Both the position numbers and the translations under genes were made by a program. A stretch of DNA of 64,000 bases from Thioalkalivibrio halophilus (GTDB taxonomy: Bacteria; Pseudomonadota; Gammaproteobacteria; Ectothiorhodospirales; Ectothiorhodospiraceae): the NCBI RefSeq assembly GCF_001995255.1, contig NZ_MUZR01000035.1, forward strand, positions 1-64,000, given 5' to 3'. The notes under the pieces are model-generated. The model was not told the DNA's origin, searched no databases, and was given only the letters and a program-made list of their open reading frames with translations. Below are positions 5,946-24,222 of this stretch, piece after piece. Position 1 is the stretch's first letter. Every line of letters begins with the position of its first letter.

Positions 5946-7421
5946 TCAGCTTCTGGGTGGTCTGACGCCTCCCTTGCGGCGAATCCCGAATCCCACTCGA
6001 AAGATGTCCGGAATGTTGATCCGGCCTTCTACGGTTCTGTAGAGCACCCCCAGTTCCTCGAGATCGTCGACCAGCAGTTCGATATCCGCCCTTCCTTCCG
6101 GTTCGGACGAAAAACGGCGCGGCGGCAGCTTCTCGCGCGAAACCTCGAGAACCCTCTGCAGGATTTCCTCCGACCAGTGGCGGCGCAGATCGTCGACTTC
6201 CAGCGGCACGGTTGCATCTCGCAGGCCCGAAAGAAGCGGGGTGACCCACGGGTAATCCTCGCGGCCCAGCTCCGCCACACGGGTCTCCGAGGCTTCGGCC
6301 ACGCCGTGCTTGATCGCTTCATAGTGAAGCGGACTGGTGTGATCGGCATACTTTTCGTGGGTGCGGTGGGCCGCCTCGCGCAGCGCCAGGAGCAAGCTTC
6401 GCGGGGCGATACGGCCGTGGGCATCCGCCAGATGCCCCGTAATCCAGGTATAGGTATAGCCTCGACGGCGGTTGGTTCCCATATACGGCCCAGCCAGATA
6501 CTCCAGCAACGGCCATTGAAGCGATTCGCCGGCACGCACGACTGTCGGCACCCGCCGTTCGCCCTGCGCATGCTCCCAGGACTCACCAGTGAGCTGCTGC
6601 GCCCGGGCGGCAAACACATCACCCGCCGCCCCGTTGGCAAGCAGGTGAAACAGCAACCCGTAGAGATCCACCGGGCGCCACGCAAGGTCGACCCGGTTAT
6701 GCAGCAATTTGGAACTGTCGCGGAAACCGAATATGCCCCCGTCTTCTTCCATATCGGGCCGCAGAAAAAACTTCAGGCGGATGTTCGGATAGGGTCGACA
6801 AGCGAGCGCGACTTCGAGGGCGCCCCGAGTCAATGCGCGCACGGATTCCCAGCCGCCCCGGGCGATCGTATCGAGCGAGTCGAACACCAGCAGAAGGTAT
6901 TGTTCTCTGCGCGTCAGTTCGCGACTGGCCGCAGCCAGCAACTCGGCGAAGGCCTCAGGGTCGGCCTGCGCCCACCGGGCCGCTTCCGTCGCACGGCCAA
7001 ACGGCGCCTGCATGCCACAAACTTCGGCCAGTTGCCGTGCCAGCAACCCGCGCCATATGTGACGGGGCTCCAGCCCCTCGGCCAGAAGCTGCTCCAGGGT
7101 CTCCGCGTCGGGATGCTGACCCATGTGCGGATCCGTACTGAAACCGATCCGCACCACGGTGTTCTCCAGAGCCTTCGGCCCCCCCGACCCCACAAGACGC
7201 TGGCGGGTCGGTTGATCGAACAGGGCCGCCGTCCACACCGATTTGCCGGAACCCCGCATGCCGATCACGACCGTCGTGTCCAGACTCAGGGCACGGGTGT
7301 GGCTTTCCGGCACGTATAGCTCCCCCGGGCCGGGTGGCGTCAGGTTCTCCTGAGCGGAGACATCGGGCAATTCACACAACGCCGCCCGCAGGGCCTCCAC
7401 TTCCGATTGCGTGCCGGTCAC
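5946..7421 (-). CDS. P-loop ATPase of a three-gene conflict-type operon
   Basis: A 491-residue protein with a clear Walker A (GMRGSGKS, residues 54-61) and Walker B (YLLLVFDSLD, 175-184). This is the layout of AAA/STAND-type NTPases used in defence and signalling. The C-terminal third (about 395-480) is helical and may be a winged-helix or effector region; it ends in IPDIFRVGFGIRRKG. I do not recognise a named family. Its ATG overlaps the stop of the KGGVGR ATPase gene, and that gene follows a small HEPN-like gene, so the three form one operon. The stop lies 17 bp beyond the tRNA-Phe repeat. A role in phage or plasmid defence is inference from gene content. Confidence 0.72.
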   Translation of the reverse strand: MTGTQSEVEALRAALCELPDVSAQENLTPPGPGELYVPESHTRALSLDTTVVIGMRGSGKSVWTAALFDQPTRQRLVGSGGPKALENTVVRIGFSTDPHMGQHPDAETLEQLLAEGLEPRHIWRGLLARQLAEVCGMQAPFGRATEAARWAQADPEAFAELLAAASRELTRREQYLLLVFDSLDTIARGGWESVRALTRGALEVALACRPYPNIRLKFFLRPDMEEDGGIFGFRDSSKLLHNRVDLAWRPVDLYGLLFHLLANGAAGDVFAARAQQLTGESWEHAQGERRVPTVVRAGESLQWPLLEYLAGPYMGTNRRRGYTYTWITGHLADAHGRIAPRSLLLALREAAHRTHEKYADHTSPLHYEAIKHGVAEASETRVAELGREDYPWVTPLLSGLRDATVPLEVDDLRRHWSEEILQRVLEVSREKLPPRRFSSEPEGRADIELLVDDLEELGVLYRTVEGRINIPDIFRVGFGIRRKGGVRPPRS

Positions 7422-8737
7422 TCCTCACCCCTCCGGACACCGAGCTTCAGGCGCTCCCCGGCCACGCGGAAAAACTCGCCGTAGACCTTGTCCAGAACCT
7501 GGGCCACCGGCATCTCCGCAGGCATATTGAACGTGGCGCCTGACATCGATGTATCGGCGTACACCGGGATCGGCCAGTGCGGCATACCCTCGTCTTCCTC
7601 CTCCGGTGCAGACGGTCCGGCTTCGGCCTCTTCATCGTAGAGCCATTGCCAGGTCTCGTAGGAACGCTCCCGGAACGCGGCCTGTGCCTTCGGCGTGGAC
7701 CCCGCCATGGCACCGACCGTGCTCAACCGCCAGCGCAGATCCGTATCCGGCATGTTGAACGTGATGGCGGGTGACCAGCGCAGGTGCCGGAACAGCTGTT
7801 CATAACCCGCCCATGTCGGCGGATCGTCCCGGGCGAACAGAAACGCATGCGCCCCCAGGCGGGTCACCGCCGCCGCGCCGATGTCGTGCATGCCGGCCCT
7901 CGCATCAAGCAACGCCACGTCGAACGGCTCGATGCGGTCGGCCGCAGTTTGCAAAAGCGCATGCACCGCCTCCGCGAACCCGTATTCCGCCCCGTCGACC
8001 CTGACCGACAGATACGCACGCCCCAGCTTGGCGACATAATCCCGAGTCCGGGAACCAAAGGCCGGAGCCAGCCGGATCTCCCCGGGCGTTCCGGGTGCCA
8101 GCTCGACGCTTCCCAGCATCCCTTCGAACAACTCGCGATCAGCCTGCCCCACTCGGCCCTCGACCAGCCAGTCCACCACGCCGTAATCCGGCCAGGGGGA
8201 CGCAGCCTCGCGCCTCGGTCCCAGCAGGAAGTTCTGGACCCCGGGAGCCTCCAGGTCCAGGTCCACCACCAGCACCTTCATGCCCCGGCCCGCCAGATGA
8301 TGAGCCCAGGCCGCCAGCGTGGTTGACCGTCCCACCCCACCCTTCAGGCTGAAGGCCACCGCCGTTGGCAGCGGGGGCTGGTCGGTGACGGGCGTTCGCA
8401 ACCAGTCCTGGTTGTTCATCAGGCGGTCCACCAGACGAATTTCGAGGGTGTCGTCACCGTCGAGCCCGACCCATTCCGGCGACTCGAATACTTCCTCCGG
8501 CATGAGCAGGTCGTCGCGCGTCTGCACGGCTTCGTCGGCACCGGGGGCAAACCGTCCGAGGCGCGCATTCAGGTCACCGGAGAGCTGCGCGCGCTCCGGC
8601 AGCTCTTCCGCGGACACGTTCACCGCCAGAGAGACCCGACCCAGCAAATCCCGAATGGCGTACACACACTTGAAGCGGGCCAGTCGTTCACACGCGAACG
8701 ATTCCGCAATCTGGAGCGCATCGTGGAATCGAACCAT
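7418..8737 (-). CDS. ParA/MinD-like ATPase with KGGVGR Walker A variant
   Basis: A 439-residue protein with a SIMIBI (MinD/ParA-type) domain starting near residue 125. The P-loop reads KGGVGRS (132-138), so the deviant lysine is kept but the usual GK[ST] lysine is Arg. LVVDLDLEAPG (about 156-166) and VALLDARAGMHDIG further on match MinD switch regions. The first 120 residues are a separate domain I cannot name. A KGGVGR-variant ATPase family is recognised in annotation databases, to my recollection. It overlaps the downstream ATPase by ATGA and follows the HEPN-like gene by 3 nt. The Arg variant raises the question of whether it hydrolyses ATP or only senses nucleotide. Confidence 0.75.
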   Translation of the reverse strand: MVRFHDALQIAESFACERLARFKCVYAIRDLLGRVSLAVNVSAEELPERAQLSGDLNARLGRFAPGADEAVQTRDDLLMPEEVFESPEWVGLDGDDTLEIRLVDRLMNNQDWLRTPVTDQPPLPTAVAFSLKGGVGRSTTLAAWAHHLAGRGMKVLVVDLDLEAPGVQNFLLGPRREAASPWPDYGVVDWLVEGRVGQADRELFEGMLGSVELAPGTPGEIRLAPAFGSRTRDYVAKLGRAYLSVRVDGAEYGFAEAVHALLQTAADRIEPFDVALLDARAGMHDIGAAAVTRLGAHAFLFARDDPPTWAGYEQLFRHLRWSPAITFNMPDTDLRWRLSTVGAMAGSTPKAQAAFRERSYETWQWLYDEEAEAGPSAPEEEDEGMPHWPIPVYADTSMSGATFNMPAEMPVAQVLDKVYGEFFRVAGERLKLGVRRGEE

Positions 8738-9888: not shown

Positions 9889-9944
9889 GCGATCTCCTTT
9901 GGCCGGCTTCGAACGCGCCAGGCTGCGAACGTTGTTCTTCGCTG

Positions 9945-9993
9945 TGGCACCATCGATGCCATGAGCGTTCGTCGTATCCTGCGTATGGGGCAC
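9945..9993 (+). repeat. Parent copy of the duplicated def 5' end
   Basis: These 49 bp, 16 bp of leader plus the first 11 def codons, are repeated at 5837-5885 with one mismatch, 4.1 kb upstream and in the same orientation. Everything between the copies is the three-ATPase operon, the DUF429 gene and the tRNA-Phe 3' repeat. Confidence 0.9.
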
Positions 9994-10497
9994 CCCGACC
10001 TGCGTCGCGTGTGCCACCCGGTGGCCGATGGCGACTTCGACAGCGCCGGGCTGCAGGCCCTGGTGGACGACCTGGTGGACACCATGCACGCCAGCGAAGG
10101 GCTCGGCCTCGCCGCCGCCCAGATCGGCGACACCCGACGCGTGGCCGTGATCGAGATTCAGCCCGGCAACACGCGCTACCCCGATGCCGTACCCACCGGC
10201 CGCCTGGTGCTGGTGAACCCGGTGGTCACCGTGCTGGACCCGACGCCGCAACGCTACTGGGAAGGCTGCCTGTCCGTGCCCGGCCTGCGCGGCGAAGTCG
10301 CCCGGCCGCGCCACATCGCCGTCGACTACCACGAGCCCGACGGCACGCCCCGCCACCTGGAACCCGAAGGCTTCCTCGCCACCGTGTTCCAGCACGAGAT
10401 CGACCACCTCGACGGCACCCTGTTCATCGACCGGGTGACCGACACCACCCGCCTCGCCTTCCTCGACGAATACCGCGAGTTCCACGCAGAAGCATAG
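9961..10497 (+). CDS. def: Peptide deformylase
   Basis: Removes the formyl group from the initiator methionine of nascent proteins. The 178-residue protein has all three metalloenzyme motifs: GLAAAQIG (about 49-56), EGCLSVPG with the metal-binding Cys (near residue 102), and QHEIDHLDG with the two metal-binding His and catalytic Glu (near 143-151). It looks fully functional. In most gammaproteobacteria def is followed by fmt; here it stands alone inside an accessory island, so it may be an extra copy or an essential gene used as an insertion hotspot. Both its ends are duplicated nearby (5837-5885 and 11074-11180). Confidence 0.96.
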   Translation: MSVRRILRMGHPDLRRVCHPVADGDFDSAGLQALVDDLVDTMHASEGLGLAAAQIGDTRRVAVIEIQPGNTRYPDAVPTGRLVLVNPVVTVLDPTPQRYWEGCLSVPGLRGEVARPRHIAVDYHEPDGTPRHLEPEGFLATVFQHEIDHLDGTLFIDRVTDTTRLAFLDEYREFHAEA

Positions 10498-10515
10498 GGC
10501 TCACGCCCGGTGCAG
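10409..10515 (+). repeat. Parent copy of the duplicated def 3' end
   Basis: This 107-bp block holds the last 29 codons of def, the stop and the left arm of its terminator. It recurs at 11074-11180 with three mismatches in the same orientation. The 558 bp between the copies hold exactly the DUF4258-DUF2283 pair. Confidence 0.92.
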
Positions 10516-10988: not shown

Positions 10989-11073
10989 AGATATTTTTCC
11001 TTTCCTGCATGAATCGCCGGCATCGTTCCCGTCAGGTAACCGAGGCGCCAGGCTGACTATCAGCCCCCCTCAC

Positions 11074-11180
11074 TCGACGACACCCTGTTCATCGACCGGG
11101 TGACCGACACCACCCGCCTCGCCTTCCTCGAGGAATACCGCGAGTTCCACGCAGAAGCATAGGACTCACGCCCGGTGCAG
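11074..11180 (+). pseudogene. Duplicated 3' end of the deformylase gene (fragment)
   Basis: These 107 bp match 10409-10515 at 104 positions, covering the last 29 codons of def, its stop and downstream bases as far as CCCGGTGCAG. No start or catalytic motifs are present. The copy sits just beyond the DUF4258-DUF2283 pair and ends 6 bp before the stop of the next gene. Confidence 0.92.
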
Positions 11181-11186
11181 GACCGG

Positions 11187-11507
11187 TCAGTCGTGCACGA
11201 TGATGCGGGAGCCGGCGGCGTCGATGTCCACGCGGGAACTGGAGTAGTCGCAGGCCTTCGCGATGTCTTTCAGAGCCGGCATGTCATTGAGCTCCGCCAG
11301 ACGATGCAGCAGGCTGCCGCCCTCGCAGTCACGCGGCATGCCGCCGTCGTCCAGCGTGCAGCCGAACTCGCCGCCATCCACCGACCAGTCCATGTCGGCC
11401 GGCATATTCAGCACCACCGGTTCCTCGTGCATCACCTGGAACTTCGCCCGCATGGCGTTCTTGCCGTTTTCCCAATCCAGGGCCGGCATGTTGTCTACGC
11501 TGCGCAT
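11187..11507 (-). CDS. Conserved-looking hypothetical protein, 106 residues
   Basis: Reads MRSVDNMPALDWENGKN..., with a strong AAGGAGG ribosome site seven bases before the ATG, so it is probably translated. It is acidic, with two cysteines around residues 50-61 and a third near 86, and no signal peptide or membrane segment. I do not recognise a family. It lies between the def 3' duplicate and a 396-bp stretch without a convincing gene, so it belongs to the accessory island. Confidence 0.6.
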   Translation of the reverse strand: MRSVDNMPALDWENGKNAMRAKFQVMHEEPVVLNMPADMDWSVDGGEFGCTLDDGGMPRDCEGGSLLHRLAELNDMPALKDIAKACDYSSSRVDIDAAGSRIIVHD

Positions 11508-11847
11508 GGTGTGCCTCCTTCGCGATTCCGCGAGGTTGCAACGGGTTTGCCGGAGCCGTTCCCTGCCCCTCTCCTTTGACGCTAGACGCCGTCCACGAGG
11601 CGGTCAAAGGTGACCCCGGCGGCGATGGGGAAGGATTCGTGTGGTCCATTACCGTTTGGTGGACTCCTTCAACAGGTGGCACACCGCAGGGCAAGCGGCA
11701 ATTGCCCCCGAAGTTCTCGCTCCCGATCAAGCTATTTGGCGGTCCAGGACGTCGGTTCAAGGGCCCGCCCACGCGCATGGAGAGCCGTAGGTCCCTGACT
11801 ACGGTGAAAAACTGGAGCCCGGACCGAGCATCAGCTACACAACAGCT
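11508..11847 (+). other. Gene-poor stretch, no supported feature
   Basis: About 340 bp before the hicAB promoter. Open frames here are short and lack ribosome sites, and no tRNA, terminal repeats or transposase motifs are visible. Its composition is less regular than the flanking genes and it may be decayed mobile DNA; I see nothing specific to support that. Confidence 0.4.
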
Positions 11848-11851
11848 TGAC

Positions 11852-11875
11852 GACTCGTACACAAATGTACGAGTC
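11852..11875 (+). promoter_or_regulatory. hicAB operator palindrome
   Basis: A perfect inverted repeat, GACTCGTAC (11852-11860) and GTACGAGTC (11867-11875), with a 6-bp spacer. A TTGACG -35-like hexamer (11848-11853) overlaps its left edge and the hicA start is 28 bp downstream. Position and symmetry fit a site for HicB autorepression. The -10 element is weak. Confidence 0.65.
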
Positions 11876-11903
11876 TATGGGCAAGGGATTAGTGGGCCGC
11901 AAC

Positions 11904-12116
11904 ATGAATGGAAACGAATACCTGAAGCGGCTGCAGAAGCTGGGAAAGAAAACCGGCACGCCGGTTCAACTGGTCGAGCACCAAGGGAAAGGGAGCCATG
12001 GCCGAATCTACTACGGTGACCGCTTCACGACCCTGAAGGACCGTAAGAAGGAGATCGGCCCCGGGCTGCTGAAAGCCATGTGCAAGCAGCTCGGTATCGA
12101 CCCGAACGACATTTGA
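11904..12116 (+). CDS. hicA: HicA family mRNA interferase toxin
   Basis: A 70-residue toxin with the double-stranded-RNA-binding-like HicA fold. MNGNEYLKRLQKLGKK forms the first helix and GKGSHGRIYYGDRFTTL the strand with the catalytic His (residue 32). The ATG at 11904 is preferred over upstream in-frame starts because those would lie inside the operator palindrome and give an atypical N-terminus. hicB follows after 10 bp. HicA cleaves mRNA independently of the ribosome in characterised systems. Confidence 0.88.
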   Translation: MNGNEYLKRLQKLGKKTGTPVQLVEHQGKGSHGRIYYGDRFTTLKDRKKEIGPGLLKAMCKQLGIDPNDI

Positions 12117-12126
12117 GGACAGAGCC

Positions 12127-12573
12127 ATGCGCTACGCATACCCCGTACAACTCGAACGCGACGAAGGCGGCCACTACCTGGCGACGTGCCGGGACGTGCC
12201 CGAGGCCCTGACGGACGGGGAATCTCAAGAGGAGGCGCTGCGCGAAATGGGCGAGGCCCTGGGCGCGGCGCTCGCTGGCTACGTCATGGAGGGGCGCCCC
12301 ATCCCCTCCCCCACCGACGCGGAACCGGGCGAGGCAATCGCGCCGGTGTCGCCCCTGATCGCCGCCAAACTCGCGCTCCGGGTCGCCATGCGGGCGGAAG
12401 GGGTCAGCAACTCGGAACTGGCACGCCGAATGGGCAGCCATGAGGGTGCGATCCGGCGGCTAATCGACGTGGATCACCGCTCCAGGATCGAGGCGGTCCA
12501 CGCCGCGATCGCCAGTCTGGGTCATGGTCTCGTCGTGGAGGATGCTCGCCCCTTTAAACCCGTCGCAGCATAG
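12127..12573 (+). CDS. hicB: HicB family antitoxin with C-terminal HTH
   Basis: A 148-residue antitoxin. The N-terminal half (MRYAYPVQLERDEGGHYLATCRDVPEALTDG) is the partial RNase H-like HicB domain that blocks HicA. The C-terminal half holds a helix-turn-helix (NSELARRMGSHEGAIRRLID), which presumably binds the palindrome at 11852-11875. It is the second gene of a toxin-first operon, the usual HicAB order. GAGGACAGAGCC upstream provides the ribosome site. Confidence 0.9.
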   Translation: MRYAYPVQLERDEGGHYLATCRDVPEALTDGESQEEALREMGEALGAALAGYVMEGRPIPSPTDAEPGEAIAPVSPLIAAKLALRVAMRAEGVSNSELARRMGSHEGAIRRLIDVDHRSRIEAVHAAIASLGHGLVVEDARPFKPVAA

Positions 12574-12608
12574 AGGGTAACCGCCAGCGCCCGCCCGGGC
12601 TCGCGGGT

Positions 12609-14456
12609 TCAGGCCTGCGCGGCCTCGCCGATGCGGCGGAGGAAGGGGGCCTGCGGCGGGCCGGTGACGATCAGCTCGTCCATGGCCCGGGTCATGGCCA
12701 CGTAGAGCAGGCGGGCCTCTTCGGCCTCGCGCTCCTCGGCGGTGTCCATCTCGCCCAGGCCGGTCAGGGCCACCACGGGAAACTCCAGGCCCTTGCTGGA
12801 GTGCATGGTCACCATCTTGACCGTGTCGGCCGGGGTGGCCGACTTCTGGCGATTGCGGTCCCCGAGGTTTTCCAGCGGGATGCCCGCACGCTCGAACACC
12901 GCGCGGATCTTGCCGGCGGCGGGCACGCGGCGGTGCAGCACGGCCATCTCGCTCCAGGGGCGGCCCTGTTCGTGCAGCCGCTTGAAGTGCCCGGCGATGT
13001 ATTCGATCTCCTGCGGCTGGGCGGGCAGGGGGATGATCGCGGGCTCCGGGCCTTCGCGGCCCGCGCTTTCCGGCGGCACGAGCGGGATGCCGTCTTCCTC
13101 GGCCTCCTGCGGGTCCAGCAGTTCGCGGGCGAAGCGGGTGGCCAGGTCCAGCACCTGGCGGGTGTTGCGGTAATTCACCCGCAGGATGGTGGTGCGCCCG
13201 CGGGCCTCCACGCCCACGCTGGAGAAGCTGAACCGGCTCTGGCTGCGGCCGTAGATCGACTGAGCGTCGTCGTACAGCACGAGCACCGAGTTGGTGTCTG
13301 GGTCGACCATCTGCGTGGCCAGCCGGAACCAGTGCGGCTCGAAGTCGTGGCCCTCGTCGATCATCACCGCGCCGTACTGCCCGCCGGGGATCTGCCCCTG
13401 GTCGACGCCGTCGATCACCTGCTGCACCAGCTGGTCGAAGAAGGCCCGCTTGTCCGTGTTATTCGGCGGGGGCGGCACGTTGTAGGTACGCAGCTGCGCG
13501 TGGCACCAGCGATGGAAGTTGTACACCACCACCTGATCGCCCGCGCCCTTCTCCGCCAGGATGGCCTGCAGGCGGTCGGCCAGGGTGCGGTTGTAACACA
13601 GCACCAGGATCGGCTTGCGCAGCGCCCGCGCCAGATGCAGGCAGCGGTAGACCAGGATCAGCGTCTTGCCCGCCCCGGCCGCGCCATGGATCACCCGGTG
13701 CCCGGTTCCCAGGCTGCGGGCCAGCTGCTCCTGCTGCAGGTCCATCACCCGCATCAGGTCCGGGAGCACTTCGGCCGGGGATTCGGTCTCGTCCGCGTCG
13801 GACGCATCGTCGAACAGGCTGCCCTGGCGGATGCGAATCTCGGGGAACAGATGGCCGCGGATGCGGTCGATCTGCGGCAGCGACAACCGGTGCGGGAACT
13901 GCACAGTGAACATGTCCCACAGCCGCTTCTGGAAATCCTCCGGATCCTGGGACTCCGTCATCTCGTCGCGACAGATGACCCGATTGGCCGGAATCACCTC
14001 GCCCAGCTCCTGCTGCTCGAACTGCGCGCGGGTAATGTTGGCCAGCACCACCCCGTGCCCGAACGGCAGCATCAACCGGCCCTGCAGCGAAGATCCCGGC
14101 GGATGCACCAGCTGCGGATCGCGCTCCAGTGGCTTGATGACCTGATAGGCATACTGGCGCGCCTGCTCCAGCGGGTTGGGGACCACTTTCAGGCCCCGGT
14201 CCGTCAGGATGGTCGCCTCCTGGCGATCGATCTGCCGGATGGTCTCCAGCCGCCAGTCCTTCACCTCCAGGATCAGCAGACCCCGCTGCGGATGCAGCAC
14301 GATGAAATCCGGATGCTCCGACCGCCCGCCCACCGGCACGTCGTACCAGCACAGGTAGTCATCCTCCAGGAAGTGCTCCAGTCGCCGCGCAAAGCGCTTC
14401 TCGCCCGACGTCATCCGCGGCAGGCAGCTGTTCAGCGAAGGTATGAGTGTTGTCAC
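12609..14456 (-). CDS. NERD-domain nuclease-helicase (SF1, UvrD/PcrA-like)
   Basis: A 615-residue fusion. The N-terminal NERD domain (about 10-115) has the nuclease-like HPDFIVLHPQRG...LEVKDW core. A superfamily 1 helicase follows: Walker A GAAGAGKT, Walker B VMIDEGHDF, VNYRNTRQVL, MHSSKGLEF and a final LLYVAMTRAMDEL. The GTG at 14454-14456 is preferred because it gives VTTLIPSLNSC, the usual start of this family, and follows a GGGAG ribosome site; the frame extends 20 codons further. Such proteins are frequent in defence islands, presumably attacking foreign DNA. It is divergent from the PD-(D/E)XK-like gene at 14687. Confidence 0.85.
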   Translation of the reverse strand: MTTLIPSLNSCLPRMTSGEKRFARRLEHFLEDDYLCWYDVPVGGRSEHPDFIVLHPQRGLLILEVKDWRLETIRQIDRQEATILTDRGLKVVPNPLEQARQYAYQVIKPLERDPQLVHPPGSSLQGRLMLPFGHGVVLANITRAQFEQQELGEVIPANRVICRDEMTESQDPEDFQKRLWDMFTVQFPHRLSLPQIDRIRGHLFPEIRIRQGSLFDDASDADETESPAEVLPDLMRVMDLQQEQLARSLGTGHRVIHGAAGAGKTLILVYRCLHLARALRKPILVLCYNRTLADRLQAILAEKGAGDQVVVYNFHRWCHAQLRTYNVPPPPNNTDKRAFFDQLVQQVIDGVDQGQIPGGQYGAVMIDEGHDFEPHWFRLATQMVDPDTNSVLVLYDDAQSIYGRSQSRFSFSSVGVEARGRTTILRVNYRNTRQVLDLATRFARELLDPQEAEEDGIPLVPPESAGREGPEPAIIPLPAQPQEIEYIAGHFKRLHEQGRPWSEMAVLHRRVPAAGKIRAVFERAGIPLENLGDRNRQKSATPADTVKMVTMHSSKGLEFPVVALTGLGEMDTAEEREAEEARLLYVAMTRAMDELIVTGPPQAPFLRRIGEAAQA

Positions 14457-14686
14457 TTCCGGGGCTCTCCCAAAGTTGCGCGGAATGGCCCCCGCTTGTC
14501 GCGAAAGCCCCGCCACCGCAATCGATCTCTATCCCCCACTCCGGCCCGAAAGGCCCCACTGACCGGCCCGCCGGCAAAGCGCCACTAGCGAAATCGACGC
14601 TGAACCACACATAGGCTATGGTTTCCACAAGCTGGCACGCAAGGATGCCGCGTTACCGATTCGCCCGGAGCCAGGAGGAACCAACC

Positions 14687-16060: not shown

Positions 16061-16114
16061 GGCAAGATGGCTCAATGGGCCTGCCCATGGCACCGTCACT
16101 GCGCTCTTGGGCTG

Positions 16115-16175
16115 CTGTAACGCAAAGCTAACCGGCGCGAGGTACGAGCGTCCGGTTGAGCGCCGAGTTAGGAGC
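16115..16175 (-). repeat. attC recombination site 2 (end of cassette B)
   Basis: Read on the minus strand, the site runs from R'' GCTCCTAAC through CTCAACCGG...CCGGTTAG to R' GCGTTACAG. The two L arms pair except for one extra base, the extrahelical base used by integron integrases. The R'' box is the exact complement of the left end of the same cassette (GTTAGGAG at 16571-16578), the signature of a mobile gene cassette. It overlaps the stop codon of the cassette gene. Confidence 0.82.
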
Positions 16176-16563
16176 TGGTACCCCAAGAATTGACTTCCCC
16201 CGACGCGGATACCCAATACACAGTGATCCCCTGCCTCCTACAGAAATCACGGAGGCCGTCCATGCGTCTCCGGTAATCAGAGGTATCAGGTATAGCTAAA
16301 GCGATTTCGTCTCCATTCTCCGGGTCTTCGGTATCTTTTATAAGGTTGAACAAACCGTGCGACAGGTTTCTCCATGCGTTATCCCACTGGTTCTTTGCGT
16401 TGCTCTCACCCTTGCACTCGATCGCAAGACGAACCCCTGACGTCGGATCCTTCCCCTCCACATCGATCCCATTTGCTTTTCCCATGCGCGGGATAACATC
16501 AATGTAGCCCTGACGCACAAGCCAGTCTGCCATGGTCGTTTTCACGTAATCTTCTGAAATCAA
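16168..16563 (-). CDS. Cassette B gene: restriction-endonuclease-like protein
   Basis: A TTG at 16561-16563, 7 bases after an AGGAG site, gives 131 residues (MISEDYVKTTMADWLVRQGY...). The frame runs 21 codons further upstream, but that stretch is attC DNA. The core GIDVEGKDPTSGVRLAIECKGE places Asp34, Glu49 and Lys51 as a PD-(D/E)XK-type site. GC content is visibly lower than in neighbouring genes. attC sites flank both sides, so this is a captured integron cassette. The function is presumably nuclease-like; the substrate is unknown. Confidence 0.7.
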   Translation of the reverse strand: MISEDYVKTTMADWLVRQGYIDVIPRMGKANGIDVEGKDPTSGVRLAIECKGESNAKNQWDNAWRNLSHGLFNLIKDTEDPENGDEIALAIPDTSDYRRRMDGLRDFCRRQGITVYWVSASGEVNSWGTSS

Positions 16564-16571
16564 CCTCTTAC

Positions 16572-16644
16572 TCCTAACGCCTGGCTTTGCGGCGCGCCGG
16601 AGCGCCAGCGTAGGTGCGTCCGACAACAGCCACTGGTTATGTGC
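16572..16644 (-). repeat. attC recombination site 1 (end of cassette A)
   Basis: On the minus strand the site runs from R'' GCACATAAC through TGGCTGTTG...CAAAGCCA to R' GCGTTAGGAG. The L arms TGGCT(G)TTG and CAAAGCCA pair with a single bulged G, the extrahelical base. R'' is complementary to GTTATGTGC at 17119-17127, the left end of the same cassette. The central variable segment is a GC-rich hairpin. Confidence 0.83.
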
Positions 16645-17104
16645 TGCTACGGCGCTGCACCACGGTTTTATTGATGATACGTCGATTGATTTTCTGCTTC
16701 CAGGCGGTTTGCTTGGGCGATAATTTCCGCTTCCTTCGGGTATCCATCAAAAACTTGTATTCTTGATCGAAGATGTAACCAAGCTTGAAAGCATGATAGA
16801 TCAAATCTTCGTTCGCATTGGCGGTATCATCGACTGCTATTCGGCGAAGCCCGGCGAAGAGGTTCCCGGTCTCAATACCGATAAATCGGTTAATACAGAC
16901 ATTACCGACGTAAGTTGTGTTGCCATTGATCTGATTGCGAATGTAGCAATGCTCTTTGATGTCCTGACCGCAGGGACAGCTATCAAATTCTTCGCTGACT
17001 TCCACGCCAATGAGCGCCCACTCCGTTCTCGCAGTATCAAAATCGCTTGCCACTGACAGGGGGGAGAATATGGGCAGCCAACCGTTCTCTATTGTGATCC
17101 ACAA
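16637..17104 (-). CDS. Cassette A gene: cysteine-cluster hypothetical protein
   Basis: A 155-residue protein reading from a TTG just after GGAGG; the spacing is short, so the start is tentative. It has a putative zinc-binding cluster (CPCGQDIKEHC with a further Cys in GNVCINRFIG) and a very basic C-terminus (RRKRKL...QKINRR...). Base composition is clearly more AT-rich than the surroundings, pointing to foreign origin. It fills a complete cassette: left boundary at 17126/17127, stop codon inside attC 1. I do not recognise the family; a nucleic-acid-binding role is only a guess from the charges and cysteines. Confidence 0.6.
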   Translation of the reverse strand: MWITIENGWLPIFSPLSVASDFDTARTEWALIGVEVSEEFDSCPCGQDIKEHCYIRNQINGNTTYVGNVCINRFIGIETGNLFAGLRRIAVDDTANANEDLIYHAFKLGYIFDQEYKFLMDTRRKRKLSPKQTAWKQKINRRIINKTVVQRRSST

Positions 17105-17118
17105 TTACCTCCCCATGA

Positions 17119-17127
17119 GCACATAAC
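17119..17127 (-). repeat. Left boundary of cassette A
   Basis: The minus-strand sequence GTTATGTGC is the exact complement of the R'' box at 16636-16644. In a cassette, the left end and R'' together rebuild the attC in the circular form, so this places the recombination point just after the G at 17127. Confidence 0.75.
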
Positions 17128-17136
17128 AGTAGATTA

Positions 17137-17178
17137 GACAGAATCTGTCATATTGGTGATATACAGATTCTGCATATC
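17137..17178. promoter_or_regulatory. Two adjacent palindromic operator-like sites
   Basis: GACAGAATCTGTC (17137-17149) is a perfect 13-bp palindrome. Nine bases on, 17158-17178 is a 21-bp palindrome GATATACAGATTCTGCATATC with one mismatched pair. Both share the CAGAnTCTG core. A third related site lies at 17432-17448. They look like binding sites of one dimeric regulator. Confidence 0.6.
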
Positions 17179-17431
17179 ATCCTGGCGTTCTCCTCTCGGT
17201 GGCACACCAATGCGGTAAACCATGCTTTTATCATGGTAGTGGACGTCGCGTCGAGTGGCAGGGCGCCCCGCGCGCTGGGACGAACGATTTTCGTCTCTTG
17301 GTCAAAGTCTTACAGGGGCCCTATCGGTCAACGTAGGGGAGACGTAGGGGCCCACGTTAAAGGCTTGCGGGTGGACTGATTCGGGGCGAGACATGGGAAG
17401 CGGGGGCTCGGGCGTGACAGAGCGCGGTGCT
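17179..17431. other. Gap between operator sites, no gene seen
   Basis: About 250 bp with no convincing open frame, RNA gene or terminator. It separates the two groups of CAGAATCTG-type palindromes and probably holds the promoter of the Nudix-helicase operon, though no clear -35/-10 pair stands out. Confidence 0.4.
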
Positions 17432-17448
17432 ATACAGAATCGGTATAT
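17432..17448. promoter_or_regulatory. Third CAGA-type palindromic site upstream of the Nudix gene
   Basis: TATACAGAATCGGTATA pairs at seven of eight positions around its central base. It resembles the sites at 17137-17178 and lies about 120 bp before the Nudix start, so it may control that operon. Confidence 0.5.
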
Positions 17449-17570
17449 CACGGTTATTGCAGCGTAGCGTGGCGAGCGGAGGCACCACGCGTGGCCCGAG
17501 AATTGGGCTTCCGCCGGGAGCTGTGGCGGCGTTCCCTGGTACGATCCGGCCAGAGACGAACCGGGAGCCG

Positions 17571-17987
17571 GTGTTGGAAACGCTCAAGGAAGCGAATCAG
17601 GCGGTGGTGGTCTGCGGCATTCTGGAGGACGCGCAGGGCCGGATCTTTGTGGCGCGTCGCGGGGCCGATCAGGCGCTGGCGGGGTATTGGGAGTTCCCCG
17701 GTGGCAAGGCGGAGCCGGGTGAGAGCCTGGAGGCCGCGGTGTGCCGCGAATTCCGCGAAGAGCTGGCGCTGGAGCTTCGAGTCGGGGAAGAGATCGGGCG
17801 CACGCCGATTCCGGGTAATGGGATCCTTGAGTTGGTGGCGCTGCGAGCGTGGACGGATGACGAGAGCCCGGTGCTGACGGTGCACGATCGCTGGTGCTGG
17901 GTGTCGCCGGCGGAGGCGCCTGGGCTCGACCTCGCGCCCGCGGACATCCCGTTGCTCGAAGCCTTTATTGCAGGACGGTCCGCATGA
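17571..17987 (+). CDS. Nudix hydrolase, MutT-like
   Basis: A MutT-type pyrophosphohydrolase. The Nudix box GGKAEPGESLEAAVCREFREELALEL fits GX5EX7REUXEEXGU and the preceding VARRGADQALAGYWEFPGG is typical of 8-oxo-dGTPase relatives. The frame extends upstream, but a GTG at 17571 (or TTG at 17574) after GGGAG gives a normal 138-residue enzyme starting VLETLKEANQAVVVCG. Its stop overlaps the helicase ATG (ATGA), so the two are coupled. Nudix genes coupled to DUF3427 helicases recur in defence islands, to my recollection. It may sanitise or degrade nucleotides during the response rather than serve normal repair. Confidence 0.85.
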   Translation: MLETLKEANQAVVVCGILEDAQGRIFVARRGADQALAGYWEFPGGKAEPGESLEAAVCREFREELALELRVGEEIGRTPIPGNGILELVALRAWTDDESPVLTVHDRWCWVSPAEAPGLDLAPADIPLLEAFIAGRSA

Positions 17988-20900
17988 GCCGGGATTGCGC
18001 CGCCAAGTCCCTGCCCGGGGCCGAATGGGTTGGCCTGCATGAACGGCTGGATACGCCGCGGGTGCGGCAGGCGCTGGAAGCCCTGGGGCTGGAGGACCAT
18101 GCCCGCTGGAGCCAGGGGCTGGAAGGCGACGATCTGGCCATGACCCTGGCGGCGGAACTGGCCCAGCGCCTCGCCGAGCGCGCCGGGGAACTGCGCGAGA
18201 AGGGGCATGAAGACTGGACCCGGGCCGTGCAGATCCTGGCGGATGCGCTGGCGGCGGCTGGGCATCCGCTGTCGGGCATTGAGGAAGACCTTCCGCTGCC
18301 GCCGTTTCGGCAGTTGTTGGAGGTGCGCTCTCCGACCGCCGACCAGGTTGGGCAGCAGGAGACACCGCGGCCGGATATACCGTTGGCGCTGTCCAGCCTG
18401 CTCACCGGGTCCGATCGCACGCCGAGTCTGGTGACGCAGATCGAGAAGGAACTGGCCAGTGCGGAGCGGGCGGACTGGCTGGTGTCGTTCATCAAGTGGA
18501 GCGGGATTCGCGCCCTGCGCGAGACGCTGAAGCGCTTTACCGAGACCCCGACGGCCGATGGCTCGCCCAGGCTGCGGATCGCGACGACCTCGTACCTCGG
18601 GGCCACGGATCTGAAGGCGATCGAGTTTCTGCTGGGCCTGCCGAACACCGAGATTCGGGTCTCGTACGACACGCATCGCACGCGCCTGCACGCCAAGGCC
18701 TACCTGTTCCATCGGAACACGGGGTTTGGCAGTGCCTACATCGGCTCGGCGAATGTCTCGCGGGTGGCGCTGGATGAGGGGCTGGAGTGGACGGCCAAGG
18801 TCAGCGAGTACGAGCTGCCGCATATGTGGCGCCAGATCGAGGCCTCGTTCGAGGCGCACTGGGCAGACCCGGCCGAGTTTGAGCCTCTAACCGCGGAAGA
18901 CCTGCCTCGCCTGCAGCAGGCGCTGGAGTCGGAATCCAGCGCAGGGCCAGCCGCGCAGAAAGACGCTGCCACATTCTTCGATCTGCGGCCGTATGCCTTT
19001 CAGCAGGAGATCCTGGAGGACATCCAGCGCGAGCGCCGTTCGGGGATCGACCGCCATCTGGTGATCGCCGCCACCGGGACCGGCAAGACCATGATCGCGG
19101 CGTTCGACTATCGCCGGTTTGCGCGCGAGCAGGCGGACAAGGGGCGGCCGTCGCTGCTGTTCATCGCCCACCGCGAGGAGATCCTGCGTCAGGCGATGGC
19201 CAGCTTCCGTCAGGTGCTGCAGGACAACGAATTTGGCGACGTGCTGGTGGGCGGGGCGCGCCCGAGTCAGGACCGCCACCTGTTCTGCACGGTGCAGAGC
19301 TGGAACGCGCGGGACCTCGATCGCCTCGACCCGGCGCATTTCGATTACGTGGTACTGGATGAGGCTCACCACAGTAGCGCCGGGAGCTATCAGCGCATCC
19401 TGGACCATGTGCGGCCCCAATGCCTGCTGGGCCTGACGGCGACCCCGGAGCGCACGGATGCCGACGACATCCGCCAGCACTTCGGCCAGCGTTACACGCA
19501 CGAGATCCGCCTGCCGGATGCGATCGAGCGTCGCCTGCTGGTGCCGTTCCATTACTTCGGCGTGGCCGACCACGAGTCCGTGGACCTGAGCCGGGTGAGC
19601 TGGCAGCGCGGGGGCTATGACGCGCAAGAACTGGAGGGCGTCTTCACCGGCAACCAAGCGCGCGCCGACTGGGTGTTGCGGCAGGCCCATGAACACGCGA
19701 CCGACCTGGGCTCGGTTCGGGGTCTGGGGTTTTGCATCAGCCGCGCCCATGCGCGGTTCATGGCCGAGCATTTTTCAGCCAAGCAGGTGCCCAGCGCGGT
19801 GCTGACCGGCGAGAGCCCGGACCACGAGCGCGAATCGGTGCAGCGCGACCTGCGCGAGGGGCGCATCCGCTTCATCTTTACCGTGGACCTCTACAACGAG
19901 GGCGTGGATCTGCCGGAGGTGGACACCCTGTTGCTGCTGCGCCCGACCGAGAGCCTGACGGTCTACCTGCAGCAACTCGGGCGCGGGCTGCGGCTGCATG
20001 AAGACAAGCCGCACCTCACGGTGCTGGATTTCGTCGCGCCGCAGGATCGGCGCTTTCGCTACGCCGCGCGGTTCCGTGCGCTCAGCGCGCGGCCGGAGAA
20101 GCGGGTGGATCACCAGATCGAGGAGGGCTTCCCCTGGCTGCCCAGCGGCTGCCTGATCCACCTCGACCGGTTGGCCACCCAGCGGGTCCTCGACAACATC
20201 CGCGCGCAGATCAACCGCCAGCGCCCGCAGATCGTGCGCGAGCTGAAGGGCTGTTTCCAGGAGGACATCGACTCCGCCAGCCTGCCCAAGATGCTCGACT
20301 GCCTGCATATGGACGACGCCGAGGACCTGCTGCGCAAGGACCTGCCCTCACGGCTGCGCGCGGACTGCGGTGGGGAGTCGACCGAGGCACTGAAACCGTA
20401 TGCCAACGGCCTCAAGCGCGGGCTGCAACGCCTGGTCCGCTGTGATGACCAGCAGTTGCTGGAAACCCTGCAAAGCCATCTGGCGGAATCCGCGTCGAAC
20501 GTGGATGAGCTCAGCGAGGAAGAACGACTCCGGCTGGCCCTCATCCACAGCACGCTATGGGGCAAGTCGCGCCCGGGGAACGGCGACCTCTCGTCGGTGG
20601 ACCGCTTCGTCCGCGAACAACGCCCGCTCTACCGGGATCTTCAGGAGGTCGCCGAATGGCGGCGCGAGCGCATGGTGCCGGCCAGCGGCATCACATTCCC
20701 GGAGCAGACGGGGCCGCTGGAGCTGCATGCGTCCTACACCCGCGAGCAGATCCTGCTGGCGCTGGGCCTCGGGAGCCTGGAGAAGCCGATTACTCAGCAG
20801 GAGGGTGTGCGGCATGTGCCGGAACGGCGAGTGGATGCGCTGTTCGTCACCCTGGAGAAATCCGAGCAGGAGTTCTCGCCCACCACCATGTACGAGGACT

Positions 20901-21184
20901 ATGCCCTCAACGAGCGGCGGTTCCACTGGCAGTCGCAGTCCGGCACCTCACCCACCTCGGAGACCGGGCAGCGCTACATCCACCACGAACAGCTCGGCTA
21001 CACCCCCATGCTGTTCATACGCCCGGCCAAGCGCGACGCCACCGGACTGAGCCAGCCGTTCACCTTCTGCGGCCCGGTGCGCTACCAGCGCCATGAAGGC
21101 AGCAAGCCGATGAGCATCATCTGGGAACTGGATTACGAACTGCCCGCCCGCCTCCTGCACCTCGCCCGCCGCACGGTCCTGTAG
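17984..21184 (+). CDS. PLD-nuclease / SF2 helicase / DUF3427 protein
   Basis: A 1066-residue multidomain protein. An N-terminal region of about 130 residues is of unknown fold. A phospholipase-D-type nuclease domain follows, with LHAKAYLF...GSANVS near 234-255. Next is an SF2 helicase: Walker A ATGTGKT (about 363), Walker B VVLDEAHHS (about 458), LTATPERTD (about 485), GVDLPEVD, and motif VI QQLGRGLR (about 662). The C-terminal DUF3427 region (about 890-1066) is a predicted restriction-like module. The single HxK half-site suggests the PLD domain works as a dimer. Domain order and the coupled Nudix gene indicate an anti-phage or anti-plasmid nuclease-helicase; this is established for relatives only in outline. 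Confidence 0.88.
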   Translation: MSRDCAAKSLPGAEWVGLHERLDTPRVRQALEALGLEDHARWSQGLEGDDLAMTLAAELAQRLAERAGELREKGHEDWTRAVQILADALAAAGHPLSGIEEDLPLPPFRQLLEVRSPTADQVGQQETPRPDIPLALSSLLTGSDRTPSLVTQIEKELASAERADWLVSFIKWSGIRALRETLKRFTETPTADGSPRLRIATTSYLGATDLKAIEFLLGLPNTEIRVSYDTHRTRLHAKAYLFHRNTGFGSAYIGSANVSRVALDEGLEWTAKVSEYELPHMWRQIEASFEAHWADPAEFEPLTAEDLPRLQQALESESSAGPAAQKDAATFFDLRPYAFQQEILEDIQRERRSGIDRHLVIAATGTGKTMIAAFDYRRFAREQADKGRPSLLFIAHREEILRQAMASFRQVLQDNEFGDVLVGGARPSQDRHLFCTVQSWNARDLDRLDPAHFDYVVLDEAHHSSAGSYQRILDHVRPQCLLGLTATPERTDADDIRQHFGQRYTHEIRLPDAIERRLLVPFHYFGVADHESVDLSRVSWQRGGYDAQELEGVFTGNQARADWVLRQAHEHATDLGSVRGLGFCISRAHARFMAEHFSAKQVPSAVLTGESPDHERESVQRDLREGRIRFIFTVDLYNEGVDLPEVDTLLLLRPTESLTVYLQQLGRGLRLHEDKPHLTVLDFVAPQDRRFRYAARFRALSARPEKRVDHQIEEGFPWLPSGCLIHLDRLATQRVLDNIRAQINRQRPQIVRELKGCFQEDIDSASLPKMLDCLHMDDAEDLLRKDLPSRLRADCGGESTEALKPYANGLKRGLQRLVRCDDQQLLETLQSHLAESASNVDELSEEERLRLALIHSTLWGKSRPGNGDLSSVDRFVREQRPLYRDLQEVAEWRRERMVPASGITFPEQTGPLELHASYTREQILLALGLGSLEKPITQQEGVRHVPERRVDALFVTLEKSEQEFSPTTMYEDYALNERRFHWQSQSGTSPTSETGQRYIHHEQLGYTPMLFIRPAKRDATGLSQPFTFCGPVRYQRHEGSKPMSIIWELDYELPARLLHLARRTVL

Positions 21185-21262
21185 CGCTCAGCGGCGAGTT
21201 CAGGTGGTGGAAAGCGGGCAGGTGATCCGGCAGCCGGGAGCAGTTCTGTTCGACTGCTTTGC

Positions 21263-22319: not shown

Positions 22320-23219
22320 TCACTCGGTGTTGGGCGTCCCGGTCTCGGAAGCCCGGATGCCGACAAGCATCTTTTCGAGCAGTCTGAGAATGCTGGCGGT
22401 GCCCGCAGGATCATGCGGCAGGTTGGCGACCATGTCGCCGACAAGCTGAAGCCGCCCGTCCGGTGCTGTCTCCTGTTCCAGGATTTTGATGACACTGGCC
22501 CGGGTTGCCTGCGCCATGATCGAGGCCAGATCCCCACCGAGAATGTACGCTCCGGCTTCCAGATAGTCGAAGTCTTCGTGGTCAAGCAGGCCGACATATT
22601 CACGGAACAACCGATCACGATTGCCGGCATCCAGATACGTCTCGACAAGATACCGGAGGTCTTCCGCGTCGCGCCGTCGACGGCCATCCTGCCGGCCGTC
22701 ATCCCAGGCGATGAGTTTGAGCAGGGCCAGACCCGCTGGAGAGATGCATTGCGTGTCAGTTGGTGGGTCGCTCCTGACCCGCACTAGGCGGGCGGTCCTG
22801 GAAGCATCGGCGAACCCCTGCACATTCAGATGGAACACGTGGTCGGGTGGCCAGCTGATGGTATGAGCCGGCCTTTCGATCCCGCCAAACGGGATAAGAT
22901 CGACCCGCACAGGTTGTTGCGCAGCAATGTACAGCAGGCGCTGCGCGGCACGATCCGTGCGGAAACGACCAGTGGCCAGGAGACCTTTTTCGAGACCCTG
23001 GAATGTATCCCAGTGTGCGATCTCCAGCGCGAGATCGATGTCCCGAGTGGCCCGCCGGACCTCGAGGCCAAAACCATGATGGAGAACCATATCCCGCGCG
23101 GTGGCCCCGACCACTACAAATGGGATACCCAGCTCGGCGGCCAGGCGACCCACCTCACCCAGCACTTCGGCTAGTAATGGGTCAATCCGGTTCGAGACGT
23201 CCAGCCAGACCGTGCTCAT
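22320..23219 (-). CDS. AbiEii-like nucleotidyltransferase toxin
   Basis: The 299-residue protein starts at the ATG giving MSTVWLDVSNRIDPLLAEVL. The nucleotidyltransferase signature is VVGATARDMVLHHGFGLEVRRATRDIDLALEI (residues about 32-64), and the later ISPAGLALLKLIAWDDGR...RDAEDL block is typical of AbiEii-type proteins. It overlaps the 3' end of the abiEi-like gene by 38 nt, the usual order of type IV AbiE systems, where the antitoxin comes first and no direct protein contact is needed. Characterised AbiE systems block phage growth by bacteriostasis. Confidence 0.85.
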   Translation of the reverse strand: MSTVWLDVSNRIDPLLAEVLGEVGRLAAELGIPFVVVGATARDMVLHHGFGLEVRRATRDIDLALEIAHWDTFQGLEKGLLATGRFRTDRAAQRLLYIAAQQPVRVDLIPFGGIERPAHTISWPPDHVFHLNVQGFADASRTARLVRVRSDPPTDTQCISPAGLALLKLIAWDDGRQDGRRRRDAEDLRYLVETYLDAGNRDRLFREYVGLLDHEDFDYLEAGAYILGGDLASIMAQATRASVIKILEQETAPDGRLQLVGDMVANLPHDPAGTASILRLLEKMLVGIRASETGTPNTE

Positions 23220-24195
23220 ACAGCATCCTTGCAGTTTCAATGTTGCGTTCGTCGCCGCTCGCCATGAGTTCGGCATGGACGAGCAGTCGCGGCGCGAGTT
23301 CCGGGCCCTCGGTGTGACATTCCGGCGGCCAGAAGGTCTGATGGAGTTCGATGTCTCCATCCGGATCCTTGCGCAGGCCGAAGGCGGCCATCAGCCGGTT
23401 GGGGGTCATGCGAGTGTGGATGGAAACCCGCTCCGGGATCAGGTATCCGGTCAGCCTTGCGGCCGCGACCTCCCCTCCCCAGACGGCACCGTACGGTTCC
23501 AGGTCGGCGTGCTCCCACCACCCGGGCCCGGGGGCGCGGTAACGCCCGAGTAACGTCCTGGGCCGCAGTTGTTCCGGGTATGCGAGGGTCCACCGTTGAA
23601 TGAGGGCATGATGGTTGTGCAGACGGCGGGTTCGCGATCCCGTTTCGAGGAGAAAGCCCTGGTCGCGCAGTGCCTGAAGACTGCGGCTGGCACTGCCGAG
23701 CGAGACGCCGGCGGCATCGGCAATCTCGCGGTAGGTCGCGTGGAGAAGACGGGGAGCGCACAGCAGGGCGAAGACGACGCGCAGGCCGGCGCTCTGGAAG
23801 GCAGCGCGGCCTGCCGGGTCGCGGTCCACCGATTCCGCGGCCACCGGCTTGTTGCCCCGGACGTAGACGTACACCGGCGGGGCATTGATGTAGGCGTTTC
23901 CGGCCAGGTCCAGATAGCCGATATCCATGCTCTTCAGGCGTTCGGCCAGGCGCGGGTTCACATACTCGCTGACGATCAGTACGGGGTATTCGGGCTCGAG
24001 ACGGGCGGCGATCCAGCTCACGCTGGCCGGGGTGAGACGGGGCACGGTGTGGACCTCGAAGCACCGCTGGGTGCGTTCCGGGGCAACCCGCAGGTAAAGG
24101 GATGATGCACGTTCGATCTGCGGGTGCAGCCCGGTCGCGCCTTCCAGGCATTCGCATGCCTGTTCCAGAAGCTGTTGTTCCTGTAAACCATCCAT
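23182..24195 (-). CDS. AbiEi-like antitoxin and autoregulator
   Basis: The ATG at 24193-24195 (MDGLQEQQLLEQACE) gives 337 residues; the longer frame would need a TTG start. The N-terminal part is an unusually long sensor-like domain. A winged-helix (YREIADAAGVSLGSASRSLQALRDQGFLLETGSRTRRL, about residues 158-194) and the C-terminal AbiEi domain follow. Upstream, a perfect 21-bp palindrome (24223-24243) overlaps the likely promoter, fitting the autoregulation known for AbiEi. Confidence 0.82.
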   Translation of the reverse strand: MDGLQEQQLLEQACECLEGATGLHPQIERASSLYLRVAPERTQRCFEVHTVPRLTPASVSWIAARLEPEYPVLIVSEYVNPRLAERLKSMDIGYLDLAGNAYINAPPVYVYVRGNKPVAAESVDRDPAGRAAFQSAGLRVVFALLCAPRLLHATYREIADAAGVSLGSASRSLQALRDQGFLLETGSRTRRLHNHHALIQRWTLAYPEQLRPRTLLGRYRAPGPGWWEHADLEPYGAVWGGEVAAARLTGYLIPERVSIHTRMTPNRLMAAFGLRKDPDGDIELHQTFWPPECHTEGPELAPRLLVHAELMASGDERNIETARMLYEHGLAGRLEPD

Positions 24196-24222
24196 GACCG
24201 GGCGCCTGTTCAAAGATTAAGC

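Follow-up and report, generated by a model that had tools for sequence, protein, structure and literature searches.

An attI site without a neighbouring integrase gene, conserved among Thioalkalivibrio species and putatively loaded with gene cassettes in trans

Arrays of gene cassettes without an integrase are commonly dismissed as debris or as off-target insertions. Whether either description suits a small array of Thioalkalivibrio halophilus is the question raised by a stretch of 64,000 nucleotides (contig NZ_MUZR01000035.1, positions 1 to 64,000), to which we refer as the window. An earlier note, made from the sequence alone, had described two complete integron cassettes on the minus strand and had classified them either as a cluster of attC sites lacking an integrase (CALIN) or as an insertion at a secondary site. 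The comparison of orthologous loci allows these cases to be separated, and it points to an integrase-less docking site of which the sequence has been kept in seven species and which has received different cassettes. With a probability of about 0.78, we regard the window as carrying a stable attI platform without intI, the cassettes of which would have been loaded in trans by an integron integrase (IntI) encoded elsewhere.

Cassettes and attC sites of the window

The crossover positions place cassette 1 at 16578..17126 and cassette 2 at 16121..16577, both on the minus strand. The gene of cassette 1 (16637..17104, minus strand) starts with TTG and encodes a conserved protein of 155 amino acids with no assigned function. 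Relatives of this protein were found on 84 plasmid records, and relatives sought in viral contigs could not be confirmed; searches against Pfam, PADLOC and NCBIfam gave no match. The gene of cassette 2 (16168..16563, minus strand) also starts with TTG and likely encodes 131 amino acids; the start of an alternative, longer open reading frame (16168-16626) would fall within attC1. The cassette 2 protein matched no family in the same three databases and no plasmid, and it contains a D...ExK motif, spotted by eye, that we take to be nuclease-like. A consensus scan detected no sigma-70-like promoter beside the array.

Both cassettes and their attC sites turned out to be real. A covariance-model check had been suggested in the earlier note, and with our own attC model, R2, attC1 (16571-16644, minus strand; model match 16571-16643) scored 51.2 bits (E 4.6e-10) and attC2 (16114-16174, minus strand) 50.0 bits (E 9.1e-10), a test that is not fully independent because one training site, on contig C51 of the same genome, is identical to attC2 over 45 of 45 bases. 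These two were the only sites detected in the 64 kb, the third-best match having an E-value of 0.95. R2 was made in this analysis from 15 training sites, all of them from other loci; its alignment (A2) omits eight of the 23 listed sites, namely the two of the window, one of L060, two of L065, one of L069 and two of L074. In the training alignment, eight of the nine predicted pairs show two-sided changes that preserve pairing.

Both sites show the R''/L''/L'/R' anatomy, with R'' complementary to the left end of the same cassette. The R'' of attC1 (16636-16644, GCACATAAC) exactly complements the left end of cassette 1 (GTTATGTGC, from 17127), and so does the R'' of attC2 (16167-16174, CTCCTAAC) with the left end of cassette 2 (GTTAGGAG, from 16578). 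The stop codons of the two genes, at 16637 and 16168, each lie within the R'' of their own cassette; in these points coordinates and sequences agree with the earlier description. Two simpler searches were less informative. A degenerate DNA pattern for attC had no match in the own genome, and a search demanding R''/R' complementarity inside a single integrated site missed true attC sites, because R' is part of the next cassette.

The claim of one extrahelical base per site was not upheld, as the bottom strands of attC1 and attC2, folded as DNA, have more than one bulged base each. They do form the R/L-box hairpin, and to this extent the folding check succeeded; the fold energies, however, are unremarkable (z -0.84 and -1.04), and 39 and 33 of 200 shuffles, respectively, fold equally well or better. 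These weak z-scores and the draft state of the genome (97 contigs) are what speaks for inverted repeats that arose by chance or for an error of assembly. However, the attC model gives E-values near 1e-9, and the identical junction between attI and its flank recurs in six other genomes, including those assembled in 2 contigs (G004) and in 5 contigs (G013), which makes this explanation practically negligible.

The attI site and its orthologous positions

As in a complete integron, an attI stands at the start of the array. The site (17127..17184, minus strand; crossover between 17127 (G) and 17126) scores 72.5 bits with an attI model, R1, the 26 rows of which include the window's own site. The attI alignment (A1) omits L033, L053 and L054/L090, in which the core is mutated or degenerate, as well as L049 (the second G002 copy) and the duplicates L050, L095, L105 and L106. 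The stretch 17124-17160 is identical in 37/37 bases to C10:71531-71567, which lies some 0.1 kb away from where an intact intI begins on contig C10 of the same genome, and it shares 94% identity over 36 bases with a stretch of contig C51. The window attI had no match on plasmids, and one typed attI pattern had no exact match in viral contigs.

The attI contains a palindromic element (ATACAGATTCTGCATA, 17161..17176, plus strand), located by a pattern search of the own genome. Its matches with 0-1 mismatch are confined to three attI loci, by which a LexA-type or general regulatory palindrome was rejected. A distal palindrome (17421..17450, plus strand) lies about 0.27 kb from attI, and its counterpart on C10 is located inside intI. 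The palindromes may serve as binding sites.

The same attI, without intI, lies between def and mutT in 7 of the 30 genomes of the genus, at a locus designated platform A. In the window, the conserved flank on the attI side is a mutT/Nudix ORF (17427..17987, plus strand), the true start of which is probably near 17574, and the conserved far flank is the peptide deformylase gene def (9961..10497, plus strand; start inferred from a profile match). The region 17124-21186, comprising attI, mutT and a helicase gene, is syntenic and 87-93% identical in G010, G005, G004, G013, G014 and G011, with the contig of G005 ending earlier than this block. All six alignments break off at window positions 17122-17125, and the far side (def, 9942-10515, and 11073-11701) was found past the cassettes in G005, G004, G013 and G011. 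The cassettes themselves differ in each species. Moreover, no identical cassette was found at two platforms, and those of the window share only attC sequence with the other loci compared; for instance, an attC at platform A of G005, the gene of which differs, matches attC1 with 92% identity over 66 bases. In G015, def and mutT are about 100 bp apart with no attI, and G008 and G026 possess mutT with no attI at the corresponding place. Mean pairwise identity within platform A is 0.93 for attI, 0.91 for the distal palindrome (17421-17450), 0.76 between the two, 0.79 for 17451-17572 and 0.27 on the cassette side. The stretch 17515-17543 is the sole other part of platform A that is conserved as highly as attI.

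Three sister platforms were compared. Platform B is an orthologous set without intI in G007, G014, G011, G029 and G005, the 3.4 kb upstream being 89-94% identical. Platform C, likewise without intI, comprises contig C51 of the own genome, G006, G008 and G014, and platform D comprises the own C10 and G006:C12, the latter with attI retained and intI gone. In 38 orthologous pairs from platforms A to D, the end of homology lies -1 to +27 nt from the crossover point G|TT, with a median of +3, and identity beyond the breakpoints is 0.15-0.47. The R'' of the first cassette matches its own left end at 8/8 positions in the window, G010, G005, G014 and G011 and at 7/8 in G004; the cassettes of C10 and C51 are their own and each match at 8/8. 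From the cassette walk, which overruns true ends (e.g. the false second and third cassettes of G010), only first cassettes and those with a 7-8/8 own-left-end match were used, and candidate attC ends were kept if they were of the YYYAAC/GTTRR type or matched the own left end, the others being dropped. No clean first cassette emerged from the walk at G013, G001a, G002a, G002b and G008. At platform A of G013, no clean attC was found for the first cassette, and at platform C of G008, where the attI core reads ACTTTG, no attC follows. The attI sequences in A1 cluster by platform, which is what old platforms, each inherited in place, should show.

Insertions of cassettes by IntI at secondary, non-attI sites (attG) do occur, and they may exist in this genus, in which 38 of 62 attC matches have no attI within 8 kb to explain them. 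At the window locus, however, such an insertion is refuted by the attI match. Cassette 1 adjoins an attI that has orthologues in seven species and a nearly identical, intI-linked counterpart on C10, and the secondary-site reading of the earlier note is thus very improbable. That note, made from the window alone, had overlooked the attI, the integrase gene elsewhere in the genome and the sister platforms.

The array could also stem from a decayed complete integron, of which intI was lost once and different species keep different remnants of one ancestral array, with no IntI activity afterwards. CALINs are generally regarded as degraded integrons in the available text of PMC9024848. Moreover, C51, G006, G014, G008, G001 and G002 have decayed 5' pieces of intI beside attI, reaching to about codon 80-146 and mostly frameshifted, with the catalytic part absent. 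These remnants indicate that the platforms derive from intI-attI modules. However, in 7/7 genomes platform A shows only the two palindromes and no remnant of intI coding sequence, and deletion alone would not repeatedly create, at platforms A, B and C, a junction at the crossover between attI and a complete cassette with the matching R'' at its far end. An ancient loss of intI fits loading in trans as well, so that decay differs from it only in excluding IntI activity afterwards; in that form we consider it unlikely.

The surroundings of the window platform are rich in defence-type genes. They encode PDC-M28B (7418-8737, minus strand), a NERD+UvrD helicase (PADLOC C3a187; 12609-14516, minus strand), a type IV restriction-like PLD/helicase/DUF3427 protein (17894-21184, plus strand) and an AbiEi/AbiEii pair (22320-24213, minus strand). 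The NERD-UvrD stretch 12603-14455 is 97% identical at the far end of platform A of G010 and missing from the other platform A stretches compared. A pair of small genes (11847-12116 and 12127-12573, plus strand), judged by eye, is presumably HicA/HicB-like and had no NCBIfam match. Near the platforms L067 (G006:C12), L069 (G014:C15), L070 (G008:C5) and L148 (G011:C2), a shared repeat of about 220 bp was observed, of which G006 has more than one copy.

The integrase gene and the proposed loading in trans

The window contains no intI, as had been claimed. All six matches to TIGR02249 in the genome at E <= 0.001 lie on other contigs than that of the window, and attI is followed by mutT and the helicase gene, where a complete integron has intI adjacent to attI and cassettes. 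The search of the rest of the genome, which had been suggested along with the claim, uncovered an intact intI on contig C10 (C10:70031-71419). It encodes 462 amino acids, matches TIGR02249 with 460.6 bits over 70040-70969 and is the sole match above the cut-off in the genome. Residues 155-460 of the protein align with the solved integron integrase 2a3v, and about 146 residues precede the Pfam SAM-like domain (148-231).

This protein is the candidate enzyme for the loading in trans. At least seven species retain a true attI between def and mutT, and the two cassettes of the window would have been loaded there by an IntI that recombines attI with attC in trans, inserting and exchanging cassettes while no intI stood beside the window attI. 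Indeed, seven species have different cassettes attached at the crossover and none has intI there, for which an IntI acting from elsewhere is the best explanation. At the level of sequence comparison, this reading is supported by the 37/37 attI identity with C10, the orthology in 7 of 30 genomes, the breakpoints at the crossover, the R'' matches, the shared attC sequence, the intact intI of C10 and the side and strand of the attC sites. Against it count the lack of a TIGR02249 match in six of the seven platform A genomes, the first cassette of G013 with no clean attC, the failure to find an identical cassette at two platforms and the negative scan for a sigma-70-like promoter. Given several attI platforms at fixed positions in the genus, the working unit would be one integrase plus a dispersed set of attI, which suggests that a single integrase gene elsewhere is able to load many separate islands. 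The six other platform A genomes gave no TIGR02249 match at E <= 1e-25; cassette activity there would thus belong to the past, and their arrays are probably frozen.

Strong attI sites (R1 >= 35 bits) occur at 28 places in 14 of the 30 genomes of the genus, and a model attC lies within 5 kb on the cassette side at 17 of them. Among the 28 attC matches of the genus within 5 kb of an attI, 24 have the cassette orientation and four the other. At 19 further attI loci, two of which (L203 and L213) correspond to R1 training rows, 30/30 attC are on the cassette side and strand, distributed over 14 of the 19 sites; among the five others, L211, L212 and L216 offer just about 1.8, 2.1 and 0.1 kb of cassette-side sequence. 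Across the order, 46 distinct attI (R1 E <= 1e-6) were detected in 24 of 47 genomes, 13 of which have at least two sites. For six of the 46 attI a TIGR02249 match was present within 3 kb, and for seven within 10 kb; 14 of the 24 attI-bearing genomes gave no such match at E <= 1e-25. Clusters of attC without a recognised attI were observed at G015:C10, G013:C1:466-468 kb and G001:C1:1.69 Mb and are candidate secondary-site insertions.

The C10 integrase (L009, G000:C10:70031-71419) and L109-L113 form an IntI lineage with about 146 extra N-terminal residues and the palindrome in attI and gene. In all five of L109-L113, the palindrome occurs near -100 (1-5 mismatches) and again within the gene at +245 (0-1 mismatches), and the extended L115 has a single match with 5 mismatches. 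Among 13 unextended integrases (L116-L128), none has the palindrome at <=3 mismatches and two have a match with 5 mismatches. This test excluded L114 and L129-L142, and a stricter palindrome test found none at L129-L132. The IntI of G043 (G043:C1:2845117-2846055), with a frame of 363 amino acids, is too short for the extension, and three palindromic attI lie elsewhere in that genome, far away. Kinship alone could explain the association of extension and palindrome. For the extended IntI of E. marina, AlphaFold gives a model of poor overall quality (pLDDT 57), in which the helical N-terminal part is predicted with confidence; a fold search with this model returned 2a3v and, below significance, the core-binding domains of Cre and lambda, the matching half of the model not being indicated. 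Very tentatively, and with doubt, a multi-docking-site integron may be envisaged, in which an IntI with an N-terminal domain of about 146 residues would read the TATACAGATTCTGTATA palindrome and load dispersed attI in trans. Modules consisting of the intI 5' part and attI would have spread as units, and one integrase gene would give rise to an archipelago of small arrays.

Comparison with known systems

The platform makes the loading of several sites in trans by one integrase directly testable. Moreover, the alignments yield an attI sequence rule for a bacterial family for which none was found described in the open-licence literature. In open-licence papers, we found neither a report on integrons with multiple attI sites nor one on Thioalkalivibrio integrons with attC.

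By definition, the CALIN label of the earlier note holds, as two clustered attC have no intI nearby, like the CALINs of IntegronFinder; yet it conceals the attI, which the window, unlike a CALIN, retains at the same place in seven species. According to the available text on IntegronFinder 2.0, attI sites are poorly described and go undetected outside class 1 (PMC9024848), so that attI-bearing cases are not separated from CALINs without attI. Cassettes inserted at attG are, like those of the window, distant from intI, whereas the target in the window is a dedicated attI. In the delta-attI-type gene cassettes of mobile integrons, pieces of attI likewise occur in odd places and are still substrates of IntI1; as far as the available text of PMC12901181 goes, the attI piece replaces attC in the cassette, whereas the window attI is a full, chromosomal docking site. 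The chromosomal integrons and CALINs of Xanthomonas resemble the present case in their ancestral platform, the frequent loss of intI, the fairly conserved positions of CALINs and the possible mobilisation in trans, as described in the available text of PMC12444791, which mentions no attI at those CALINs. Here, in contrast, attI sites of one family occur at several separate loci, and homology ends at the crossover.
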